Positions 2,355 through 22,487 of a stretch of 64,000 nucleotides of DNA are shown here, piece by piece (the first letter of the stretch is position 1; each line of letters starts with the position of its first letter). The position numbers and the translations under genes are program-made. Location: the NCBI GenBank assembly GCA_013178295.1, contig JABLWW010000002.1, positions 62,001 through 126,000 on the forward strand, read 5' to 3'. The stretch is from Anaerolineae bacterium (GTDB lineage: Bacteria > Chloroflexota > Anaerolineae > Anaerolineales > Anaerolineaceae). The notes under the pieces were generated by a model. The model did not search any database. It was not told where the DNA came from and saw only the letters and a program-made list of their open reading frames with translations.

Positions 2355-4247
2355 ATGAAGCTGAAAATACATATCCGCAATCGTTATCTCTTGGGCATTG
2401 ACTTATTTTTGATCGTTGCCGCTGTGCTGGGGAGTTACGCTTTGCGGCTTGAGTTCAGCCCGGCGTTTTATGTCTATCTTCCCTCAGCACTGTGGATGTT
2501 AGGCGTCTCCTTAATCATCAAGCCGCTGGTATATTACAATTTTGGATTGTACCGGCGGCTTTGGGTCTATGCCAGCATGCACGAACTCAAGCTGATTGTT
2601 ATTTCGGTCATCACTGCATCCATGCTGGTTGCACTGGTAATGATCTGCCTGTTTGCATTGGGGTTGTTTGTTGGCTTTCCACGCTCTGTGCTGATCATTG
2701 ACTGGCTTCTCTCCATCTTGATGGTGGGTGGCGTGCGGTTTTCCATCCGCATGTTGACAGAGAGTCGTGTGGTAACACCCCCAGAAAAACCCAAACGCCA
2801 GCGCAAGGTGTTGGTGGTAGGCGCTGGCGATGCTGGCGCGCTGGTAGTGCGCGAGCTTCAAAAGACCCCACAGCTAAATATTATTCCAGTGGGATTTCTA
2901 GACGACAGCCCCGAGAAACAGGGACAACAGATTCATGGGATTCCCATTGTGGGTAAACTAGCCGATTTATCACAGGTTTTGGAAACTCAGCACATCCATG
3001 AGGTCATCATTGCGATCCCCAGCGCCCCCGGCCGCGTTGTGCGCATGGTGGCAGATGTGTGCCGCTTGAAAGGCGTCCCCTTCCGTACCATGCCCGGCAT
3101 CTATGAACTGCTAGGTGGAAAGGTAAGCGTCAGCCGTCTGCGCGAGGTAGATATTACCGACCTGCTACGCCGTGAATCAACTCATATATGCGATGAAAAA
3201 GTGGGGGCAGTTATCAGCCAGCGGGTCGTGCTGGTAACCGGCGCGGGAGGGTCAATCGGCAAGGAGCTTTGCCGCCAAATTGCCCGCTGGGATCCCGAAA
3301 AGCTGGTCATGGTTGGTCACGGCGAAAACAGCATTTTTGAGGCAGTCATTGAATTGCAGGAAGCATTCCCCGAACTGACATTGCATCCTGTGATTGCTGA
3401 CTTGCGCGATATTTACCGTTTGCAAAGCGTCTTTCAGCAGTTTCGTCCGCAGGTTGTTTTTCACGCCGCAGCGCATAAACATGTGCCCCTGATGGAAATC
3501 AATGTTGAGGAAGCGGTTACAAACAATATTCTCGCCACACGCAACGTGGTTGAGGTAGCGCTGGCGTATGACGTTGAACGGCTGGTGATGATCTCAACCG
3601 ATAAAGCTGTCCGCCCCATCAACGTTATGGGAGCGACTAAACGCATCGCCGAAATGATTGTGCTGGATGCCGCTGAACGGCATGGCAAAACTTTTTCGGT
3701 TGTACGTTTTGGTAATGTGTTGGGCAGCCGCGGCAGTGTCGTACCACTGTTCAAACGTCAAATTGCACGCGGCGGCCCGGTAACGATTACACACCCGGAT
3801 ATGCGCCGCTATTTTATGACCATCCCCGAGGCAGTACACCTGGTGTTGGAAGCTGCCAGTCTCGGCGAAGGGGGCGAAGCCTTTATGCTCAATATGGGCC
3901 AGCAAATACGCATCCTTGACCTGGCAGAGGATTTGATACGGCTTTCTGGACTCGAACCCGGTAAGGACATCGAGATTGTGTTCACAGGCATTCGCCCAGG
4001 CGAGAAGCTGAGTGAAGACCTGTGGGATGAGAACCACCTGTTCAAGCCGACTGAACATCCAGAGATTTACCGTCTCAATGGCAATGGGGAAAGTCTGCAT
4101 GGCGAAGCATTGACAACTTCGGTCGAAGAACTGATCCGCCTTGCCCAACAAGGAGAAACAGAAGCCATCCTCAACCTGTTTGATGAGCTGATTCCTGGTT
4201 CAGCCGTTCGTACGATGAGCAAGCCTGAAATCACGGCAATTGACTGA
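2355..4247 (+). CDS. Membrane UDP-sugar 4,6-dehydratase (CapD/FlaA1/PglF family)
   Basis: Predicted NAD-dependent UDP-HexNAc 4,6-dehydratase or epimerase supplying modified sugars to the polysaccharide. The 630 residues contain four N-terminal membrane helices (about 1-130), a first Rossmann domain (VLVVGAGDAGALVVREL) and the catalytic SDR domain with VLVTGAGGSIGKEL. The active site reads STDKAVRPINVMGATKR: Met takes the place of the classical Tyr (MxxxK), which is characteristic of the large membrane dehydratases such as PglF. Start chosen at the ATG one base after the upstream stop; a TTG further upstream would overlap the previous gene. The stop TGA overlaps the next ATG (TGATG), implying coupling with the FemAB gene. 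Confidence 0.92.
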   Translation: MKLKIHIRNRYLLGIDLFLIVAAVLGSYALRLEFSPAFYVYLPSALWMLGVSLIIKPLVYYNFGLYRRLWVYASMHELKLIVISVITASMLVALVMICLFALGLFVGFPRSVLIIDWLLSILMVGGVRFSIRMLTESRVVTPPEKPKRQRKVLVVGAGDAGALVVRELQKTPQLNIIPVGFLDDSPEKQGQQIHGIPIVGKLADLSQVLETQHIHEVIIAIPSAPGRVVRMVADVCRLKGVPFRTMPGIYELLGGKVSVSRLREVDITDLLRRESTHICDEKVGAVISQRVVLVTGAGGSIGKELCRQIARWDPEKLVMVGHGENSIFEAVIELQEAFPELTLHPVIADLRDIYRLQSVFQQFRPQVVFHAAAHKHVPLMEINVEEAVTNNILATRNVVEVALAYDVERLVMISTDKAVRPINVMGATKRIAEMIVLDAAERHGKTFSVVRFGNVLGSRGSVVPLFKRQIARGGPVTITHPDMRRYFMTIPEAVHLVLEAASLGEGGEAFMLNMGQQIRILDLAEDLIRLSGLEPGKDIEIVFTGIRPGEKLSEDLWDENHLFKPTEHPEIYRLNGNGESLHGEALTTSVEELIRLAQQGETEAILNLFDELIPGSAVRTMSKPEITAID

Positions 4248-5230
4248 TGGCCATCCTGAGCGCCGCTGAGTGGGATGAGTTTCTTGCCGGGCAGTCAGAC
4301 GCCCACATTCTTCAGACCAGCGCTTGGGCGGAATTAAAGACGGCCTTCGGCTGGGACGTTGTACGGGTATGCAGGAACGATACCGGTGCGCAGGTGCTTT
4401 TGCGGCGGCTTCCGCTTGGCTTTTCAATTGCATATATTGCCAAGGGACCAGTCGGCGAAACATGGCTGCCGTTGTGGGAGGAATTAGATGCATTCTGCAG
4501 ACAGCGCCGCGTCGCCTTTCTCAAAGTAGAGCCGGATTTATGGATGCCCTTACCGGCTCAAACGCAGACTGCGCTCTCCACCTTTTTGCGCGGGCAACCC
4601 ATCCAGCCACAGCGCACGATTCTTATCAATCTGGACGGAGAAGAAGAAACCTGGCTGCAGCGTATGAAGCAAAAGACGCGCTACAACATTCACCTGGCAA
4701 AGAAAAAAGGGGTAACTGTTTGCCAATCGGAAGACGTGGCTACATTTGCTGCCCTGATGGCGCAAACCGGACAGCGTGATGGCTTTGGTGTTCACAGCCT
4801 GGCATACTATCAGCGCGCCTATGATCTTTTTGCTCCCTCAGGCAGATGTGTTCTACTGATGGCTCAGTTTGAGACGAGACCATTGGGGGGGCTGATGGTT
4901 TTTGCGCAGGGGGCGCGTGCCTGGTATTTCTATGGCGCCTCCAGCGATGCGGAGCGTAACCGTATGCCCTCTTATCTGTTGCAATGGGAAGCAATGCGTT
5001 GGGCAGCTGGCAAAGGATGTGCCGTATATGATCTGTGGGGAATCCCAGATTGTGATGAAGAGATATTGGAATCTCAATTTTCACAACGCTCCGATGGCTT
5101 ATGGGGGGTGTATCGCTTCAAGCGCGGCTTTGGTGGGAAGATTGTGCGTTCCGTTGGCGCATTCGACCGCGTCTATTCCCCTCTGTTATACCGGTTTTAT
5201 CGCTGGTGGCTGGCGAGGAGGTCAATATAG
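4247..5230 (+). CDS. FemAB/FemX-like aminoacyltransferase, copy 1
   Basis: Member of the FemABX peptidyltransferase family, which uses aminoacyl-tRNA to add residues to lipid II or other cell-envelope acceptors. The 327 residues cover the double-GNAT fold, including the start motif HILQTSAWAELK and the KQKTRYNIHLAKKKGV signature (about 142-157). The C-terminal RFKRGFGGKIVRSVGAFD block is typical of the family. A second paralogue follows and overlaps by 25 bases, so this is a tandem duplication at the end of the polysaccharide operon. Family membership is clear. Whether the acceptor is peptidoglycan or another envelope polymer is unknown, and the polysaccharide context leaves both possible. 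Confidence 0.85.
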   Translation: MAILSAAEWDEFLAGQSDAHILQTSAWAELKTAFGWDVVRVCRNDTGAQVLLRRLPLGFSIAYIAKGPVGETWLPLWEELDAFCRQRRVAFLKVEPDLWMPLPAQTQTALSTFLRGQPIQPQRTILINLDGEEETWLQRMKQKTRYNIHLAKKKGVTVCQSEDVATFAALMAQTGQRDGFGVHSLAYYQRAYDLFAPSGRCVLLMAQFETRPLGGLMVFAQGARAWYFYGASSDAERNRMPSYLLQWEAMRWAAGKGCAVYDLWGIPDCDEEILESQFSQRSDGLWGVYRFKRGFGGKIVRSVGAFDRVYSPLLYRFYRWWLARRSI

Positions 5231-10710: not shown

Positions 10711-11643
10711 TCAAACCTGATACACGCGCGGCTCAGGCACAAACTCACAGGCAATTTGTGCCCCCAGTCGGGCATTATGATGCAGGAGAGCCAGATTGGC
10801 TTCCAGACTTTTACGCTGGCTCAACTCACTGACGCGGCGAAGCAGAAAAGGCGTTACAGCTGCGCCCGTAATGTGGGACTGTTGTGCTTCTTGTAGCGCC
10901 ACCTGAATTTTCTCCTCAATTTCCGCAGCGGGCAGGGCAAGCTCTACAGGCAAGGGGTTAGCAACCAGCACAGCGCGCAAAATACCCATTTCCCACTGTG
11001 CGCGGGCAATGCGGACAATTTCAGCGGGTGTGTCAGCACGGACAGTAACTGGCAAGCCGCTGTCGCGCGAATAAAAAGCTGGGAATTCATCCGTTTGATA
11101 GCCAATTACAGGCACGCCAAGCGTTTCGAGATACTCAATAGTAGCGGGGAGGTCTAAGATCGCCTTAGCACCTGCACAGACGACAATCAATGGGGTGCTG
11201 CCCAACTGAGGAAGATCAGCGGAAACATCGTATGACGCGCCACGATGTACCCCGCCAATCCCTCCTGTTGCAAAAACTTTAATGCCTGATGCGTGCGCAG
11301 CGATCATGGTCGCAGCCACCGTCGTTCCGCCGCTCTCCCCTCTTGCCAGGACAATGCCAAAATCGCGGGCGCTGATCTTGCGGCGTGCTTCGCCCGGCTG
11401 TGCCAATTTCTCGAGCTCGTCTTTATCTAATCCTACATGCACTTTGCCCTGCAGCACAGCAATAGTGGCTGGCGTAGCGCCCTCCTGGCGAATAATCTGT
11501 TCCATCTCAGCAGCCAGCTCGAGATTCTCAGGATATGGTAACCCATGTGTGATAAGTGTCGACTCGAGCGCAACCACCGGCCGGGCATTCTTCAGCGCAC
11601 GGGCAACTTCAGAATGAATAACAAGGTGTTTGTTGATATGCAT
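10711..11643 (-). CDS. psuG: Pseudouridine-5'-phosphate glycosidase
   Basis: Cleaves the C-C glycosidic bond of pseudouridine 5'-phosphate to uracil and ribose 5-phosphate. The 310 residues match the PsuG/IndA family over the full length: VALESTLITHGLPYP near the N-terminus, GGTTVAATMIAAHASGIKVFATGGIGGVHRG split over residues about 104-133, DVSADL, and GYQTDEFPAFYSRDSGLPV near 198-216. These include the conserved acidic and lysine residues expected around the Mn site. Upstream by 12 bases lies a PfkB-family kinase, the usual partner that makes its substrate. Assignment is firm. Confidence 0.93.
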   Translation of the reverse strand: MHINKHLVIHSEVARALKNARPVVALESTLITHGLPYPENLELAAEMEQIIRQEGATPATIAVLQGKVHVGLDKDELEKLAQPGEARRKISARDFGIVLARGESGGTTVAATMIAAHASGIKVFATGGIGGVHRGASYDVSADLPQLGSTPLIVVCAGAKAILDLPATIEYLETLGVPVIGYQTDEFPAFYSRDSGLPVTVRADTPAEIVRIARAQWEMGILRAVLVANPLPVELALPAAEIEEKIQVALQEAQQSHITGAAVTPFLLRRVSELSQRKSLEANLALLHHNARLGAQIACEFVPEPRVYQV

Positions 11644-14468: not shown

Positions 14469-14552
14469 GGGGCGGTGGCGGAACAGGCAGACGCAGCGGA
14501 CTTAAAATCCGCCGGTGGCAACACCTTGTGGGTTCAAGTCCCACCCGCCCTA
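14469..14552 (+). tRNA. tRNA-Leu (anticodon UAA)
   Basis: An 84-base class II tRNA. Acceptor strands GGGGCGG and CCGCCCT pair with one G-U. The anticodon arm is GCGGA-CTTAAAA-TCCGC with TAA at positions 34-36. The long variable arm is GGTG-GCAA-CACC. The T arm is GTGGG-TTCAAGT-CCCAC. The discriminator is A and CCA is not encoded. The integrase gene of the downstream element begins 57 bases later on the same strand, the usual arrangement for tRNA-associated integration. Confidence 0.95.
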
Positions 14553-14608
14553 CATGCAGGGGTTACAACACCATAGACCACTATATATGGCGGTTAAATG
14601 GTGTAATC

Positions 14609-15538
14609 ATGCAAAAACAGAAAATTAAAGACCGGAGGACTTTTTACCCGTTAATATCTGCCGCTGTAAAGAGTTTCCTCACCGATTGCCACATCCGCCA
14701 TCTCTCACCTCGAACGATTGACTTCTACAACGAAAAGCTAACCCGCTTTATCACCTTCTGCGAAACACAATCTGTCACCAGTATCGATAAGGTGGACGCC
14801 CACCTACTGCGCACCTTCTTCTTGTGGCTTGAAAACAAGGGTAACTCCGCAGGTAGCCGTCATGCTTATTACCGCTCTCTGCGTGCCCTGTTCCGCTGGT
14901 TAGAAAATGAGTTTGAGGAATTTACTTCACCGCTCCGCAAGGTCAAGCCACCAAAGGTGAACACTCAGCCAATTGAAGGCGTCAGTATCGCAGATGTTCA
15001 AGCATTACTAAAAACCTGTAGGTCTAAGACCTTCTGCGATTATCGCGATAAAGCCATAATGCTAGTCCTGCTTGATACCGGCGTGCGCGCTAGTGAATTG
15101 CTCGCGCTCAATTGGTCGGATGTTGACCTGATTTTGGGTTCAGTATTTATCCGCAAAGGTAAGAACGGCAAACCGCGAACGGCATTTATAGGACGCACCG
15201 CCCGCCAAGCCCTACGCGCCTATGCCCGACTTTGCCAGGATGGACAAACCGCTGTCTGGGTTACAGTTTTCGGAGAACGCATCACCTATGACGGTTTGCG
15301 CGATATTCTCCGCCGCCGGTCAAGATTAGCCGGTATCAGCCCACCCAGCCCGCATGACTTCAGACGCACCTGCGCCCTAACCCTACTCCGTAATGGTGCA
15401 GATGTCATCAGTGTTAGCCGCTTGCTGGGTCATTCCTCCCTTGAGGTAACAAAGGTGTATTTGGCGCAAACAGACGCAGACCTGGAACAAGCCCACCGCC
15501 TTTATTCGCCCGTTGAGACACTCAAACGTACCCGGTAG
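14609..15538 (+). CDS. Tyrosine recombinase (element integrase)
   Basis: Site-specific recombinase of the XerC/XerD-like phage integrase family, predicted to integrate and excise the element. The 309 residues contain an N-terminal SAM-like core-binding domain (about 15-105) and a catalytic domain with all active-site residues: Arg160 in DTGVRASELL, Lys near 182-187, HDFRRT (His249, Arg252), LLGHSS (His275) and nucleophile Tyr284 in TKVYLAQT. ATG at 14609 is chosen because the longer open frame runs back through the tRNA-Leu gene. It sits 57 bases after the tRNA and points into the element. It ends 17 bases inside the opposing gene's 3' end. Confidence 0.93.
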   Translation: MQKQKIKDRRTFYPLISAAVKSFLTDCHIRHLSPRTIDFYNEKLTRFITFCETQSVTSIDKVDAHLLRTFFLWLENKGNSAGSRHAYYRSLRALFRWLENEFEEFTSPLRKVKPPKVNTQPIEGVSIADVQALLKTCRSKTFCDYRDKAIMLVLLDTGVRASELLALNWSDVDLILGSVFIRKGKNGKPRTAFIGRTARQALRAYARLCQDGQTAVWVTVFGERITYDGLRDILRRRSRLAGISPPSPHDFRRTCALTLLRNGADVISVSRLLGHSSLEVTKVYLAQTDADLEQAHRLYSPVETLKRTR

Positions 15539-18803: not shown

Positions 18804-20045
18804 CTAACTCCTCCTTTCTTCCTGGTTTCCTACAGAAGTGAGGAAACCAGTGGAAACTGGAAACCCATCATTTTGGTTTCCTGTATCACTTGAAGAAGTG
18901 AGGAAACCAGTGGAAACTGGAAACCTGTGGTTTCCAGTGGTTTCCACAGTTTCCACAGTTTCCTGGTTTCCTATGGTTTCCACACTTCTGTTTATTTTCC
19001 AGTGCCTACCCTGAATAGAGACAAACCCGCGCTCGTAGAGTTTATATAACTCTTTGTAAATGTTCCCTTTTTGCCTACCTGTGGCTTGTGAAATCTCCAT
19101 AAGCGTAGCAAGACCGCCCAATTGCTCAATCGCTTTGAGGGTTTCGCGTTGTGTATCGGTCAAGAGACTTTCCTTTGCGGATTCAACCCAGCAGCCCATG
19201 AATGCGTCAAAGCGGATGTCAAGCTCACATTCCTCAATATCCCTCCCAACGATTGAAAAACGCGCTCCAGTTTTTCCTTGTTGTGAGTAAAGACCAATAA
19301 TCGTATCGCACACACCGCTTTTTGAAACGCTGCCTAGAATGTCCTCAATTGGGTTCGCGTCAAATCCATTCCGTTTTCTGTGATGGTCAATCAGGATGAT
19401 TGACGTTCCTGTATCCGCTGTGTAATCCTGGAGCGGCGACAAGACCGCTGTTACCGCCGCACTATCGTTCCAGTCTTTGATTTGAAAAGCCCTGCTTACT
19501 GTATCGACAATGACCAGGTCGAATTTTTCGTTTTTGAGAAACGCAAGAAAATTTGCGCTTCCGCTCTTGCCGCCAAAGTGTGCGTGAAACTGTGTGCCGA
19601 AAAGAACGGTCAAGTTTTGCGCCGCTTCACTTTTCCAGCCCTGTTTTTGCAGCCTGTTCTGAAGCCTGCGCGGACTATCTTCAAGCGCGCAGTATAGTAC
19701 ACGTCCACCCTTTGCCTTGCGATTCAAAAAATAGCCATCAGCACAAACGCCCTGCGCTAATTCCAACGCAAGCCAGGATTTGCCCTTCTTTGGCGCACCA
19801 GCCAACAGTGTTAGCCCAGTAGGGAGTAAGCCTTCTACCAACCAAACGGGTTCAGGGAATTCTGCCTTCAGTAGGTCTACTCCGTTGATAATGCCAGGTA
19901 TCGTTTGCGGCTTTTTGTCCTCGCCCTCAAAAGCTTTCTCCGCGTTTGCCCGCGCTTGCTCTTCACTCTCACCAAGAAGCATACGCATTTTCACCAGCCG
20001 CTGTTTTGCGTCAGCAAATTTGTCTCCGTTGTCGCCTACGCCCAT
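18804..20045 (-). CDS. RepA/AAA_25-type replicative ATPase with C-terminal winged helix
   Basis: RecA-fold ATPase related to plasmid RepA helicases and phage replication ATPases, likely to drive element replication. The 413 residues include Walker A GAPKKGKS (83-90), Walker B FDLVIVD (175-181) and the IDHHRK motif (219-224) typical of the family. A DNA-binding winged helix follows (about 293-350, LTDTQRETLKAIEQLGGLA onward). The tail (about 358-413) is low complexity, with FPVSTGFLTS encoded twice by a 60-bp repeat. ATG at 20045 is chosen for GAGGTGG upstream and overlaps the preceding stop by 10 bases; a longer start would add 13 residues. The repeated DNA may be an origin (see repeat entry). 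Confidence 0.88.
   Translation of the reverse strand: MGVGDNGDKFADAKQRLVKMRMLLGESEEQARANAEKAFEGEDKKPQTIPGIINGVDLLKAEFPEPVWLVEGLLPTGLTLLAGAPKKGKSWLALELAQGVCADGYFLNRKAKGGRVLYCALEDSPRRLQNRLQKQGWKSEAAQNLTVLFGTQFHAHFGGKSGSANFLAFLKNEKFDLVIVDTVSRAFQIKDWNDSAAVTAVLSPLQDYTADTGTSIILIDHHRKRNGFDANPIEDILGSVSKSGVCDTIIGLYSQQGKTGARFSIVGRDIEECELDIRFDAFMGCWVESAKESLLTDTQRETLKAIEQLGGLATLMEISQATGRQKGNIYKELYKLYERGFVSIQGRHWKINRSVETIGNQETVETVETTGNHRFPVSTGFLTSSSDTGNQNDGFPVSTGFLTSVGNQEERRS
18824..18981. repeat. Iteron-like array inside the replication gene
   Basis: Thirteen or so copies of the heptamer GGTTTCC, its complement GGAAACC, or one-base variants occur in 158 bases, many spaced about 10 bases apart. A 32-base unit is exactly repeated at 18834-18865 and 18894-18925 (period 60). 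The array covers the 3' end of the RepA-like gene. Origins inside initiator genes are known from lambda O and related phages; here that function is inference. Confidence 0.7.
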
Positions 20046-20419
20046 GTCTCCACCTCTTCTTGAATGACCCGTAAAGCCGCCCATCCTTGCCGCAAAACCT
20101 GAATCTTTTTCAAGGCTTCAGTCGCCGCTTCTTCAGCCGTTTTGCCTTCAAGTGCGTACCTACCGCCTTTTATGTAGGTGCCAACCACACCAGCCGCAAA
20201 CACACAATCAAGCGCAAGTGCGGTCGCGTCATCATCATCAGCCGCCTGGATTGCTTCACGCTGTTTTGCGAATTCAACCAAAAACTTTTTAGCGCTTTCA
20301 GATATTTTTGGCGTCCAGCCGTCAATGATTTGCGAAACAGTTTTTGGTGCGATAACGATGGCGTTCAAAAGTGTTTCTTCTTGCTCACCGGCTAAACGAA
20401 CGATTGCGTCCTCAAACAT
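20036..20419 (-). CDS. Hypothetical protein upstream of the replicative ATPase
   Basis: The 127 residues match no recognised family. The protein is helical and acidic, with DDDDATALALDCVFAAGVVG in the middle and EALKKIQVLRQGWAALRVIQEEVETW at the end. It overlaps the ATPase gene by 10 bases, so the two are coupled. Position directly before a RepA-like gene suggests a role in loading or regulating it; this is context only. A strong intrinsic terminator lies 13 bases upstream of its ATG, so it probably has its own promoter or depends on readthrough. Confidence 0.6.
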   Translation of the reverse strand: MFEDAIVRLAGEQEETLLNAIVIAPKTVSQIIDGWTPKISESAKKFLVEFAKQREAIQAADDDDATALALDCVFAAGVVGTYIKGGRYALEGKTAEEAATEALKKIQVLRQGWAALRVIQEEVETWA

Positions 20420-20431
20420 GTTTCCCTCGAC

Positions 20432-20461
20432 AAAAAAATAATAGGCTTTTCAGCCTATTAT
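20432..20461 (-). terminator. Rho-independent terminator, minus strand
   Basis: On the minus strand ATAATAGGC and GCCTATTAT form a 9-bp stem with a six-base loop, followed by seven T. It lies between the first gene of the leftward operon and the next one, so it could limit expression of the replication gene. Confidence 0.75.
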
Positions 20462-20469
20462 CTAAAATC

Positions 20470-20506
20470 GAGTACCGTTTGAGGGTCGTTGAGTACCGTT
20501 TGAGGG
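20470..20506. repeat. Two 16-bp direct repeats with a 21-bp period
   Basis: GAGTACCGTTTGAGGG occurs at 20470-20485 and 20491-20506, separated by five bases. A 21-bp period puts both copies on the same face of the helix, as for iterons or operator pairs. The site lies between the stop of the gene at 20515-20994 and the terminator. Confidence 0.7.
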
Positions 20507-20514
20507 ACGAATTT

Positions 20515-20994
20515 TTAGGCTTTCGTCCAGTTACGCCCTTGCTTTTTGAGAATGCCGCGCCGCCCGGCATCCCTCAAAGCTTGTTTGAATGACCGCTCCG
20601 TCATAAAGATTCCTGCGTCCTGGTAGGCTTGCTCCAAAAACTCTTGCATGTTACAACGCGGATATGGTCGCTCCACCCATGCAAGGCAAAGCCGGTCAAT
20701 GGCAGACACCTCCGCCTTTGGCGCAACTTGCACCCGTTCAAGCTCACGTTCGAGACACCGCAAATCAAAATCAACTCTGGCGCATTGTAGCTGCCGTTCT
20801 GGTGGTTTTTCGCCCTGAATGATGGTCATGATTTTGTTTTGCGCCGTTCGCAAAATGTGCACATTACCAGGTAGGCTTGTCGGATAACACACCATTGTTA
20901 CACCGCCAATGTCAACGGTTCTTACGTCAAGCTCTTTTTCAGCAATCAAATCATCAGCTAAAGTTTTTGGAATTTGGTAAATCTTACGGTTCAT
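20515..20994 (-). CDS. Hypothetical protein, first gene of the leftward replication block
   Basis: The 159 residues match no recognised family. The C-terminal half (FMTERSFKQALRDAGRRGILKKQGRNWTKA) resembles a winged helix, so DNA binding is plausible. GAGGG lies nine bases before the ATG. The same ribosome-site sequence, read on the plus strand as AGCTTCCCT (20999-21007), recurs in the loop of the small RNA encoded on the opposite strand. Expression of this gene is therefore a likely antisense target. A replication initiator or regulator is possible. Confidence 0.65.
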   Translation of the reverse strand: MNRKIYQIPKTLADDLIAEKELDVRTVDIGGVTMVCYPTSLPGNVHILRTAQNKIMTIIQGEKPPERQLQCARVDFDLRCLERELERVQVAPKAEVSAIDRLCLAWVERPYPRCNMQEFLEQAYQDAGIFMTERSFKQALRDAGRRGILKKQGRNWTKA

Positions 20995-21010
20995 GTTTAG
21001 CTTCCCTCTG

Positions 21011-21019
21011 TGTTATAAT
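21011..21019 (+). promoter_or_regulatory. Extended -10 promoter of the candidate small RNA
   Basis: TGTTATAAT is a perfect extended -10 (TGnTATAAT). The expected start at about 21026 falls exactly at the base of the first RNA hairpin. No good -35 is visible, as is usual for extended -10 promoters. Confidence 0.65.
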
Positions 21020-21025
21020 TTGTTT

Positions 21026-21080
21026 TGGTAGGCAAGCTTCCCTGCCTACCGCAAAGCCAGGTGTGCGCCTGGCTTTTCGT
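21026..21080 (+). ncRNA. Candidate antisense (countertranscribed) small RNA with terminator
   Basis: About 55 bases. Hairpin 1: GGTAGGCA (21027-21034) pairs with TGCCTACC (21043-21050) around the loop AGCTTCCC. Hairpin 2: AAAGCCAGG (21053-21061) pairs with CCTGGCTTT (21068-21076), followed by TTCGTTATTTT, an intrinsic terminator. There is no open reading frame of note. The loop sequence AGCTTCCC(T) is repeated at 20999-21007, overlapping the ribosome site of the gene on the other strand, so the loop is complementary to that gene's Shine-Dalgarno. The RNA would also be fully antisense to that gene's leader if its transcript starts right of 21080. Confidence 0.65.
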
Positions 21081-21130
21081 TATTTTATCACAAAAACGAA
21101 TATGCAATCTCAAAAATTGTCAAGGCTGAA

Positions 21131-21159
21131 TGTCATGTTTTTTTCATGACAAATGTCAT
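21131..21159. promoter_or_regulatory. Operator-like repeats TGTCATG
   Basis: TGTCATG (21131-21137) and CATGACA (21145-21151) form a perfect 7-bp inverted repeat around seven T, and a third half site TGTCAT follows at 21154-21159. They lie in the divergent region between the leftward replication block and the rightward promoter, as expected for an element repressor binding site. The repressor is not identified. Confidence 0.5.
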
Positions 21160-21184
21160 AATTACTGTTCACTTTCTTTCGCAC

Positions 21185-21213
21185 TTGACAAAATCCATAA
21201 CTTGACTTATACT
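21185..21213 (+). promoter_or_regulatory. Sigma-70 type promoter of the small rightward gene
   Basis: TTGACA (21185-21190), a 17-base spacer and TATACT (21208-21213): consensus -35, ideal spacing and five of six -10 bases. Start expected near 21220. Confidence 0.8.
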
Positions 21214-21223
21214 AAAGATGATA

Positions 21224-21240
21224 CTAAACATCATGTTTAG
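21224..21240. promoter_or_regulatory. Palindromic operator-like site
   Basis: CTAAACA-TCA-TGTTTAG, perfect 7-bp half sites, directly downstream of the expected transcription start. The 11-mer TCATGTTTAGC at its right half (21231-21241) also occurs at 20991-21001 across the start codon of the leftward gene, which could link control of both genes. Confidence 0.55.
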
Positions 21241-21274
21241 CACTATTCAGAAAAATAGAATGGAGAAAGTAAAA

Positions 21275-21514
21275 ATGAAAGAAGTGAGTGAAAAAGTTTT
21301 AGAAAATCGCTTGCGCCGTCAAGCAACCCGACTCGGTTTGCGGCTTATAAAGTCCAGGACTTGGAAGGCTAACATTAATGACTATGGCGAATGGGCAATC
21401 ATCGATAGCGGAACAAACGCCTTTGTGTGCGGTAATCGTTTTGACATGTCTCTGGAAGAAGTCGCTCAATGGCTAAAAGAGTATGAGGAAAACATCAGAG
21501 AGAGTCGAGATTAG
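21275..21514 (+). CDS. Small hypothetical protein at the element's right end
   Basis: Seventy-nine residues. The pattern RRQATRLGLRLIKSRTWKANINDYGEWAIID, split across residues about 12-42, followed by a C-terminal SLEEVAQWLKEYEE helix, resembles short uncharacterised proteins common on phages and integrative elements. No function is known. ATG at 21275 is chosen for GGAGAAAG upstream; earlier in-frame ATGs (21260, 21233) have none, and the one at 21233 lies in the palindrome. Driven by the strong promoter at 21185-21213 and facing away from the replication block, like a lysogeny or immunity gene. Confidence 0.65.
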   Translation: MKEVSEKVLENRLRRQATRLGLRLIKSRTWKANINDYGEWAIIDSGTNAFVCGNRFDMSLEEVAQWLKEYEENIRESRD

Positions 21515-21797
21515 CTAAAGCCTATTCATTCCAGCCGCTTGTGTCAAACCGCTTTACCTACAATCATTGTCCGCTGGACACAAAAGACCGCAAAATCGCC
21601 AGGATAAGAGACCGACAAAAGTCATGCTTTTTCTCACTTGCCGAAAAGCATTTTTTGGCTATAATGATTTTATGATTTCGGTTTCAGCAAACACCCGTTT
21701 TTTCAAAAAAGAACAGCAGCTTACGCGGTTTTGCTTCTATTTTTTCGGCTTTAGAACATTAAAAAATCGGTATATCTGGCGGTATCAAGACGCATGA
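21515..21797. other. Region without a supported gene
   Basis: About 280 bases between the last element gene and the epimerase fragment. A possible promoter, TTGCCG-16-TATAAT (21638-21665), is followed by a 41-codon frame (21672-21797) with no ribosome site and A/T-rich, unconvincing protein sequence. The candidate right attachment repeat lies at the end of the region. Confidence 0.5.
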
Positions 21798-22487
21798 CCA
21801 CCATATATTAGGGCGCGCAAGGAACGTATCCGCTCAAGCCGATTGGAAGCTGGCCAGGCTGTTGTGCAGGCGGTTGCATCAGCGCGCAAAAAGCCCACAG
21901 TGGTATTGCAGGCATCGGGGATAGGCTATTATGGATTGCTTGGTGATGAGCAGGTGAATGAAGAGGCTCAGCCAGGGAACGACTGGCTGGCGCGCCTGGC
22001 AGTGGAGTGGGAGAATTCGACTGCAGCAGTGGAGGAGATGGGCGTGCGGCGTGTCGTTTTGCGCACCGGGCTTGTTCTTGCGCGCCAGGGAGGGACATTA
22101 TCGCTCATCGCTTTGCCGTTTCGGCTGTTTGTCGGTGGTACACTGGGTAACGGCAGACAGTACTGGTCTTGGATACATCTTGACGATGAGGCAGGGGCAA
22201 TATGTTTTCTGATGGAGAATCAGGCGGCTCACGGCGTATATAACTTGACCGCGCCTAATCCTTTGCCAATGGGGCAGTTTGGGCATATCCTGGCAGCGGT
22301 GATCAAGCGTCCTTACTGGCTGCCTGTGCCAGGGTTTGTGCTGCGGCTGATGTTGGGCGAAATGAGCAATTTGGTGCTTGGCGGGCAACGTGTTGTCCCT
22401 ATGAGGCTTTTGTCTGCTGGGTATTCTTTCAAATATGCAGAACTTCAACCCGCTTTGGAGAATTTGCTGGGTACGGCAAGGAGATAA
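21798..22487 (+). pseudogene. N-terminally truncated NAD-dependent epimerase (TIGR01777/YfcH family)
   Basis: The frame encodes the last two thirds of a sugar-nucleotide-epimerase-like SDR protein of the YfcH family: ERIRSSRLEAGQAVVQAV, LQASGIGYYG, RTGLVLARQGGTL, WIHLDDEAGA and NLTAPNP are typical. The nucleotide-binding N-terminus (GGTGxIG and about 90 residues) is absent. An in-frame TGA lies at 21795-21797, and family-like sequence begins only at about 21813, right after the element. Without the Rossmann glycine motif it cannot be a working enzyme. No ATG with a ribosome site fits. Probably broken by the insertion or by a later deletion. Confidence 0.85.

Follow-up and report, generated by a model that had tools for sequence, protein, structure and literature searches.

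Most of the regulatory RNAs known from mobile elements are, to our knowledge, those of plasmids and phages of enteric and Gram-positive bacteria. RNAI of ColE1, CopA of R1 and the Inc RNA of ColIb, whose role in copy control is proven, have a primer or a rep leader as target. RNAII of plasmid pMV158 is about 50 nt long, and small RNAs directed against Shine-Dalgarno (SD) sequences, such as LhrC and RNAIII, follow a C-rich loop rule in which the loop pairs with the SD. In the parts of the papers cited here, pMV158 is described as a rolling-circle plasmid whose RNAII targets the initiator gene repB, has a single hairpin, which is its own terminator, and does most of its binding by a single-stranded 5' tail and not by a loop (PMC4485353). 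asRNA1 of pSYSA, a replicon able to integrate, has about 150 nt and three stem-loops, is antisense to a coding region, is processed by RNase E, and lies beside the gene preceding a helicase-type Rep, CyRepA1 (PMC9978351, in part). The integrative element SGI1 encodes and needs sgm-sRNA, which the cited part of PMC9299015 describes as processed from the 3' end of a primary RNA and required for transfer.

The locus described here lies in the window, which is the whole stretch of 64,000 nucleotides that was analysed, and a literature search found no paper with a title on such an RNA. The account considered moderately probable is that an integrative element in the window encodes an antisense RNA of about 55 nt, which would belong to an uncatalogued two-hairpin family of Chloroflexota and would repress the divergent gene of a 159-aa protein (p159) via its SD, its leader or both. 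Like RNAII, the predicted RNA is small, has its own terminator hairpin and would be complementary to mRNA just upstream of start signals; it differs in having two hairpins, a loop as the putative binding part and an orphan gene, p159, as the putative target (PMC4485353, in the part cited). It shares with ColE1 RNAI, CopA and Inc RNA the design of a stem-loop RNA opposite a replication transcript (for ColE1 partly in PMC9978351), and differs in its lack of an Rfam match and in its proposed target, an orphan gene two genes away from RepA. Like asRNA1, it would be an antisense RNA beside a gene that precedes a helicase-type Rep and would serve the control of a replicon able to integrate, and it differs from asRNA1 in length, number of stem-loops and, as far as the cited part of PMC9978351 describes asRNA1, in the coding-region antisense position and RNase E processing of the latter. 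With sgm-sRNA it has in common that a small RNA is encoded by an integrative element. It shares with LhrC and RNAIII the C-rich loop able to pair with an SD. LhrC and RNAIII act in trans on distant genes, in the cited parts of PMC4132741 and PMC2837412, whereas here the gene that would be paired is the immediate neighbour. Features of the locus are collected in Table 1.

Table 1. Features of the integrative element around the small RNA gene, in window coordinates
Feature	Coordinates	Strand	Evidence
Tyrosine integrase adjoining tRNA-Leu 14469-14553	14600..15538	+	Profile match
RepA-like AAA_25 helicase	18804..20084	-	Profile match, E 1e-29
127-aa ORF (p127), first gene before RepA	20036..20419	-	68.5% identical in L045
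Intrinsic terminator directly before p127 SD	20436..20463	-	Terminator scan and fold
Two 19-nt direct repeats, 21 nt apart; the CCCTCAAAC part can pair with the p127 start	20470..20509		Repeat search and fold
159-aa ORF (p159), proposed target, orphan; possible C-terminal winged helix	20515..20994	-	Searches; weak model
Weak -35, TTCATG, 18 nt before the -10	20990..20995	+	Weight-matrix scan, score 11.8 with the extended -10
SD region of the 159-aa gene, a copy of the loop nonamer	20999..21007	-	Direct reading, pairing comparisons
Extended -10 TGTTATAAT of the small RNA	21011..21019	+	Direct reading; TGNTANNNT opens 21 of 29 aligned relatives
Predicted small RNA, about 50-55 nt	21026..21080	+	Fold, terminator count; covariance-model match 21011-21085
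Hairpin 1, loop AGCTTCCC at 21035-21042	21027..21050	+	Fold
Hairpin 2, intrinsic terminator	21053..21076	+	Terminator scan and fold
U-rich tail	21075..21085	+	Direct reading; R2 match
79-aa ORF (p79), strong TTGACA-17-TATACT promoter; homologue beside the RNA in L109	21275..21514	+	Promoter scan and homology
Right end: 89 bp identical to G000:C19, inside a split epimerase gene	21811..21899		Sequence comparison

All coordinates of the anatomy between 21011 and 21085 were verified on direct reading of the sequence. The stem of hairpin 1 is formed by GGTAGGCA (21027-21034), which pairs with TGCCTACC (21043-21050), and hairpin 2 has ten unbroken pairs including A-T, followed by TCGTTATTTT. The nonamer AGCTTCCCT is found at 20999-21007 and again at 21035-21043, and its first copy lies over the SD of p159 (AGAGGGAAGCT on the minus strand). 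The sequence-only reading had claimed the extended -10, hairpin 1 with its loop, hairpin 2 with its U-rich tail, and the repetition of the loop nonamer over the SD of the divergent gene, and each of these is confirmed. The predicted fold of 21024-21086 has -29.8 kcal/mol (z -4.8), and none of 200 shuffled sequences is equally stable. Of 43 exact TGNTATAAT sites in 864 kb of the same genome (the window and 40 further stretches), one has a terminator no more than 90 nt downstream, and this site is the present locus. With the looser -10 TGNTANNNT, the strict descriptor finds the whole anatomy at one of 1433 own-genome sites and at none of 317 sites in 331 kb of three relatives' genomes, and the relaxed one finds it at four of the 1433. 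A terminator alone is not unique to the locus: a rough ORF call gives 84 divergent gaps, and five of them have one. The -35 and -10 were scored with a weight matrix; a generic sigma-70 scan of the window does not list the small-RNA promoter.

The source genome is a draft of 3.95 Mb in 21 contigs, in which the element spans from the tRNA-Leu and its integrase to about 21811. The RNA gene is located in the divergent gap between p159, which is read leftward, and p79, which is read rightward, and the p159 start lies 16 nt behind the -10 of the small RNA. In the leftward operon p159 is followed by p127 and RepA, and RepA stands two genes beyond p159 and behind a terminator; the nearest relatives of this RepA outside its own genome are in G364 and G304. 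Sister element L045 of the same genome has no such region upstream of its p127-RepA genes. The search for p159 homologues among 151 relatives finds p159 itself alone, and in 396 genomes of the class, at E ≤0.1, it gives 19 matches including its own copy, the other 18 being short, broken or within unlike frames. Viral contigs, genome contigs, plasmids and phages hold no match to p159, and no family could be assigned to it. Its single-sequence model has a mean pLDDT of 50.7, reaching 73-80 only in the last three of ten blocks, and the best Foldseek match has an E of 0.31; the C-terminus may be a winged helix, as read from the predicted elements of this low-confidence model.

Several side observations concern the element itself. 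A TIGR01777-type epimerase gene is split between the window, which has its C-terminus (21811-22487), and contig C19, which by reading has its N-terminus (L007), with an identical overlap of 89 bp, and 101 bp around the tRNA-Leu end (window 14500-14600) recur on contig C3. These epimerase and tRNA-Leu junctions are those of two related elements with swapped flanks, through recombination or misassembly at a 94% identical stretch. A third related element of the genome, L108 (G000:C8:78500-92500), follows a tRNA, and its end repeat is 80% identical to window 21694-21806. Besides four genes like those of the window, L108 has a short ORF whose translation resembles a ribbon-helix-helix protein, and its RepA match is only weak (E 5.6e-4). 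In the window (20436-20463), in L045 (6967-6998) and, by eye, in L108 (about 2710-2750) and L109 (about 3955-3995), an intrinsic terminator abuts the SD of the gene with which the rep block begins, although the sequences differ; it is possibly an attenuator, a second control point of the leftward operon. In the predicted fold, pairing of CCCTCAAAC with the p127 start (20404-20415) encloses the terminator and the SD of p127. The perfect 17-bp palindrome CTAAACATCATGTTTAG is found at 21224-21240, at the start of the p79 transcript, and CATGTTTAGC recurs at 20992-21001, over the p159 start codon and the small-RNA -35; the two sites are possibly a shared operator.

The anatomy recurs beside other RepA genes. 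Locus L109 of genome G598, which was reached through its p79 homologue, has an element between two equal-score tRNA genes with related integrase, RepA and p79, and on its strand opposite RepA the 13-mer TGTGTTATAATTT precedes two hairpins and a U-tail. The same anatomy is found in L046 and L047, the two closest RepA relatives, just 5' of a gene whose translation resembles a lipoprotein, and with a longer loop at the corresponding place in L129. A descriptor was fixed after the window, L046, L047 and L109 had been seen, and RepA loci, oriented by RepA, were scanned with it. It matches ten times in 80 genome RepA loci, each time antisense (extended -10 sites: 512 sense, 521 antisense), once, antisense, in 80 viral RepA loci (309 and 336), twice, both antisense, in 20 loci with wide flanks (116 and 111), and two times antisense and once sense (L355) in 15 further class loci (75 and 93), which remained after 20 had been fetched and five duplicates dropped. 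The total is 15 antisense matches and one sense match in 14 of 195 loci, with extended -10 sites balanced at 1012 sense and 1061 antisense; the other 181 loci, many of which lie outside Chloroflexota, have no match. L128 and L130 duplicate the DNA of L047 and L046, and without both the out-of-sample count is 13 antisense and one sense. Eight matches, all antisense, fall in the 16 RepA loci taken as Chloroflexota.

With the relaxed descriptor the 80 genome loci give 14 antisense and no sense matches and the viral loci two of each, while L288-L307 give two antisense and no sense, the own genome four and the other background one. The 15 new class loci give four antisense matches, two of them at one place, and four sense matches, three of them in a tandem repeat. 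The relaxed match at L130 18915 is also counted as L111 within the background, L338 was found by the relaxed descriptor only, and L139 5323 lies outside a tRNA and may fall outside the element. The exact hairpin pattern is found in five stretches of viral contigs, none of which encodes a relative of the element's proteins. Separately, two AAA_25 loci from two genomes of one family, L017 and L018, have a nearly identical 15-bp hairpin after TGCTAAAAT.

Covariance model R1 was built from six relatives (L351, L297, L350, L302, L338 and L109) in a MAFFT alignment (A4) that was not fitted to the model. RNAalifold predicts 19 pairs on these six, 13 of which have compensatory change, and paired cells amount to 93%, versus 73.6% in shuffles and at most 47% with slid partners. 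The terminator arm of L109 overlaps the last codons of a xis-like gene, and therefore part of the arm sequence may be held by coding. At E ≤0.1, R1 has matches in 41 of 199 class members, four of which had supplied training sequences, and in 35 of the 41 at E ≤0.001, with up to six matches in one genome. In the alignment of 29 R1 matches (A5), a model-fitted one in which the six seeds are present again, 17 of 19 pairs covary, with 143 double changes versus 39 in shuffles, and the bulge column of hairpin 2 has a G in 27 of 29 rows. Among the 80 genome RepA loci R1 matches three times in L134 and once each in L179 and L132, all antisense, and in the sense direction in L156 (24.0 bits); it has one weak match in the viral RepA loci and a weak sense-strand match in L347 (18.4 bits), and its best score in 1.13 Mb of background is 16.7 bits. 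L134 has its three R1 copies in one stretch of 17 kb (2925-3008, 4652-4735 and 10997-11080), two of them about 165 bp from tRNAs.

Rfam 15 finds two tRNAs only in the whole window; at E ≤5 in 20380-21300 it gives five matches, none of which reaches the gathering score or covers the RNA on its strand, and in 14 relatives' loci its one match other than tRNAs is a c-di-GMP-I riboswitch at a distance from the RNA. The sequence-only reading had proposed an RNA with two hairpins and had suggested looking for their covariation: relatives indeed keep two covarying hairpins, a U-rich tail and mostly the -10, and their stems are kept through compensatory change. The comparison with homologues, which that reading had named as able to refute it if stems and loop/SD match were not conserved, on the whole speaks for it. 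The anatomy of the gene, its structural conservation, its strand and its placement are direct results of these computations, and the prediction of a small structured RNA gene opposite the element's operon is well supported.

Both R1 and a second model, R2, were built without the window. Run over all 64 kb with filters off, each has its best match at 21011-21085 along its full length (model 1-82 of 82), R1 with 21.8 bits (E 0.0021, next match 10.7) and R2 with 29.1 bits (E 6.9e-5, next match 10.9); under default filters the covariance search misses the window RNA, and 800 kb of own-genome background reached 17.4. Scaled to the whole genome, by a scaling of our own, the E is about 0.1 for R1 and about 0.004 for R2. 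The family order of extended -10, hairpin 1, and hairpin 2 with U-tail is present in the window, and the bulged G in the 3' arm of hairpin 2 is absent. Because its hairpin 2 is unbroken and without the bulged G, the window RNA is classed from its sequence as an outlying variant, a distant and not a typical member of the two-hairpin family. L128 (20.4 bits) and L134 5551 (19.6 bits) fall in a grey zone, and L219 1588 (15.9) and L170 (12.0) lie below it. At E ≤5, R2 matches none of the anatomy sites in L130, L133, L139 and L150 and neither of the two that the strict descriptor gives in L132; because anatomy matches in several loci gave no R2 match, the anatomy is common to more loci than the sequence family.

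The match of loop and SD was compared in the window and in relatives. For pairing with the loop, the p159 SD ranks second of 628 starts, and a shared word of at least 9 between the window loop and SD occurs in 89 of 20000 dinucleotide shuffles. The loop-SD duplex has a predicted -16.7 kcal/mol, and a duplex along the full leader -127 versus -63 for the parts. In relatives 37 nt from the first part of the RNA were compared with 23 nt around the opposite gene start, in 21 test loci formed by 17 of the 26 R1 loci together with the window, L128, L130 and L170. Nine R1 loci were left out, namely eight without a near start and L379, which has a doubtful 63-aa frame, while L351 (164 nt) was kept; L129, L132, L133, L134, L139, L150 and L219 were not entered. 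The longest shared words among the 20 relatives are 11 nt in L350 (AAACCGCCTCT), 8 in L390 and L392 and 7 in L396, the other 16 having 3-6; 13 of the 17 R1 members tested have words of at most 6. Own-locus words nevertheless exceed permuted ones, with p 0.0001 for the 21 loci with the window, 0.003 without it and 0.007 for the 17 R1 members; without the window, words of at least 8 give p 0.01, and words of at least 7 taken alone give 0.08, which is not significant. The conservation of this match, on which the sequence-only reading had made its proposal depend, therefore holds in part: the enrichment persists without the window, and the word is long in only three or four of 20 relatives. As judged from these words, the match extends beyond the window alone, yet is not universal, and is partly conserved.

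These results bear on an explanation by antisense in cis alone, on the pattern of plasmids, in which the leftward mRNA starts to the right of 21080, a full duplex or transcriptional interference acts, and the loop/SD repeat is incidental. Complementarity would be full if the leader is long, as in the duplex of -127 kcal/mol, a weak leftward extended -10, TGATAAAAT, is present at 21089-21081, the words are of at most 6 nt in 16 of the 20 relatives, and pMV158 RNAII does work while being complementary just upstream of the repB start signals (PMC4485353, in the part cited). This explanation is nonetheless rather unlikely. The scan for a leftward p159 promoter gives no good candidate, its best score of about 7 being no better than background (such sites occur about three times per kb-strand in the window), the enrichment of loop/SD words in relatives is significant without the window, and in 17 of 26 R1 loci the gene begins 14-93 nt behind the promoter of the RNA and may own a nearer start. 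A copy of the SD word in the loop is best explained if the mRNA leaves the RNA gene uncovered, since an antisense RNA that overlaps it in full would have no need of such a copy.

These opposite-strand starts, taken as called, are common and not universal: a start within about 100 nt of the -10 holds also in the window, and there is none within 100 nt in 9 of the 26 R1 loci (L338, L351, L382, L384, L385, L386, L389, L391 and L393). A neighbour profile scan, which covered 66 of 128 listed ORFs in 25 loci, finds AAA_25 and phage integrase as the commonest families, with eight each; five of the 25 loci had been found through RepA, and therefore about three of the eight AAA_25 matches are probably independent (L386 verified). 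A Pfam scan of ten opposite-strand neighbour genes has a match in four. The neighbour is a sigma-70 region 4 protein in L390, a ClpP-like protease in L387 and a weak HTH in L351, and in L394 (6118-8714) the gene opposite the R1 RNA encodes a PAPS-reductase protein and is succeeded by a DUF4007 gene, a combination which we take to be one of defence islands. Mostly, the neighbour genes of the relatives are of no known kind and not recognisably replication genes.

The RNA could instead serve the end of the element, in integration, excision or insulation from a neighbouring tRNA operon, and not the adjacent gene. A tRNA is found about 140-240 bp from the R1 RNA in L134 (twice), L338, L379, L382, L384, L386, L389 and L391, two tRNAs of the same anticodon are found in each of L383, L389, L390 and L391, and in L109 and L377 the end of the RNA falls at the 3' end of a xis-like or integrase gene. 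Three query integrases, compared with 20 R1 loci with wide flanks, have a match in nine, on the opposite strand in all nine. Against this stand the gene starts that adjoin the promoter in 17 of 26 loci and the enriched anti-SD words, and the window RNA points outward with p79 between it and the end; a role at the element end is thus doubtful.

In a further alternative the minus-strand leader is the functional molecule, and its hairpin loop and SD, both with AGGGA, form a two-site CsrA target as in glgC. The host encodes CsrA (Hfq was searched for in the host and not found), the two sites share AGGGAAGCT 36 nt apart, and a CsrA dimer that bridges a hairpin loop and an SD is described in the cited part of PMC7652899. 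Both sites have GGA but no ACA/GU context and differ from the RUACARGGAUGU consensus, and the long stem partly buries the GG, which disfavours binding according to the same review (PMC7652899, in part). The plus-strand -10 and U-tail and their recurrence are left unexplained, and this alternative is very improbable. That the hairpins are DNA-level palindromes, an operator or origin with an accidental promoter and tail, is scarcely credible: inverted repeats covary too and the region adjoins replication genes, but the loci repeat one polarity, with the promoter at one end and the U-tail at the opposite end (15 antisense versus one sense), and the bulge and unequal arms of R1 hairpin 2 fit an RNA better than a symmetric site.

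In the preferred reading, a small RNA that represses p159, RNA polymerase would start at about 21026 from the extended -10, hairpin 1 would form with its C-rich loop, and transcription would stop at hairpin 2 and the U-tail. The loop would then pair with the p159 SD over 9 bp and block translation, and the full RNA would pair with the p159 leader should the leftward mRNA begin to the right of 21080. The leftward operon, with p159 followed by p127-RepA, would be kept low in this way. Transcription, pairing, repression and any effect on replication are what we infer.

The sequence-only reading had gone further and called the RNA a plasmid-like copy-control RNA. The RNA has by its sequence a promoter and a terminator of its own, as such an RNA should, and lies on the strand opposite the RepA operon; this part stands, but copy control does not follow from it, with p159 an orphan and RepA two genes on behind a terminator. 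Any tuning of replication depends on the role of p159, and a role of p159 in replication is a guess, because p159 is an orphan. By analogy with pMV158 RNAII and pSYSA asRNA1, as far as the cited parts of PMC4485353 and PMC9978351 describe them, control of copy number is a fair hypothesis. More tentatively, and with the chances somewhat against it, the family could be a portable switch, in which a conserved scaffold (extended -10, C-rich loop, terminator and mostly the bulged G) stands divergently beside the gene that opens a module, be it for replication, a sigma factor or defence. Its loop would be re-edited to the SD of the neighbour and retargeted when modules are exchanged, and it may give immunity or copy control between co-resident elements.

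A covarying RNA family in 41 of 199 sampled genomes of one Chloroflexota class, which is often near an integrase and a RepA-type helicase and has no Rfam 15 match in the loci searched, would offer a handle on how such elements control themselves. The covariance model renders the family searchable, and the family would provide a testable case of an RNA scaffold whose loop would be rewritten to the ribosome-binding site of its neighbour.
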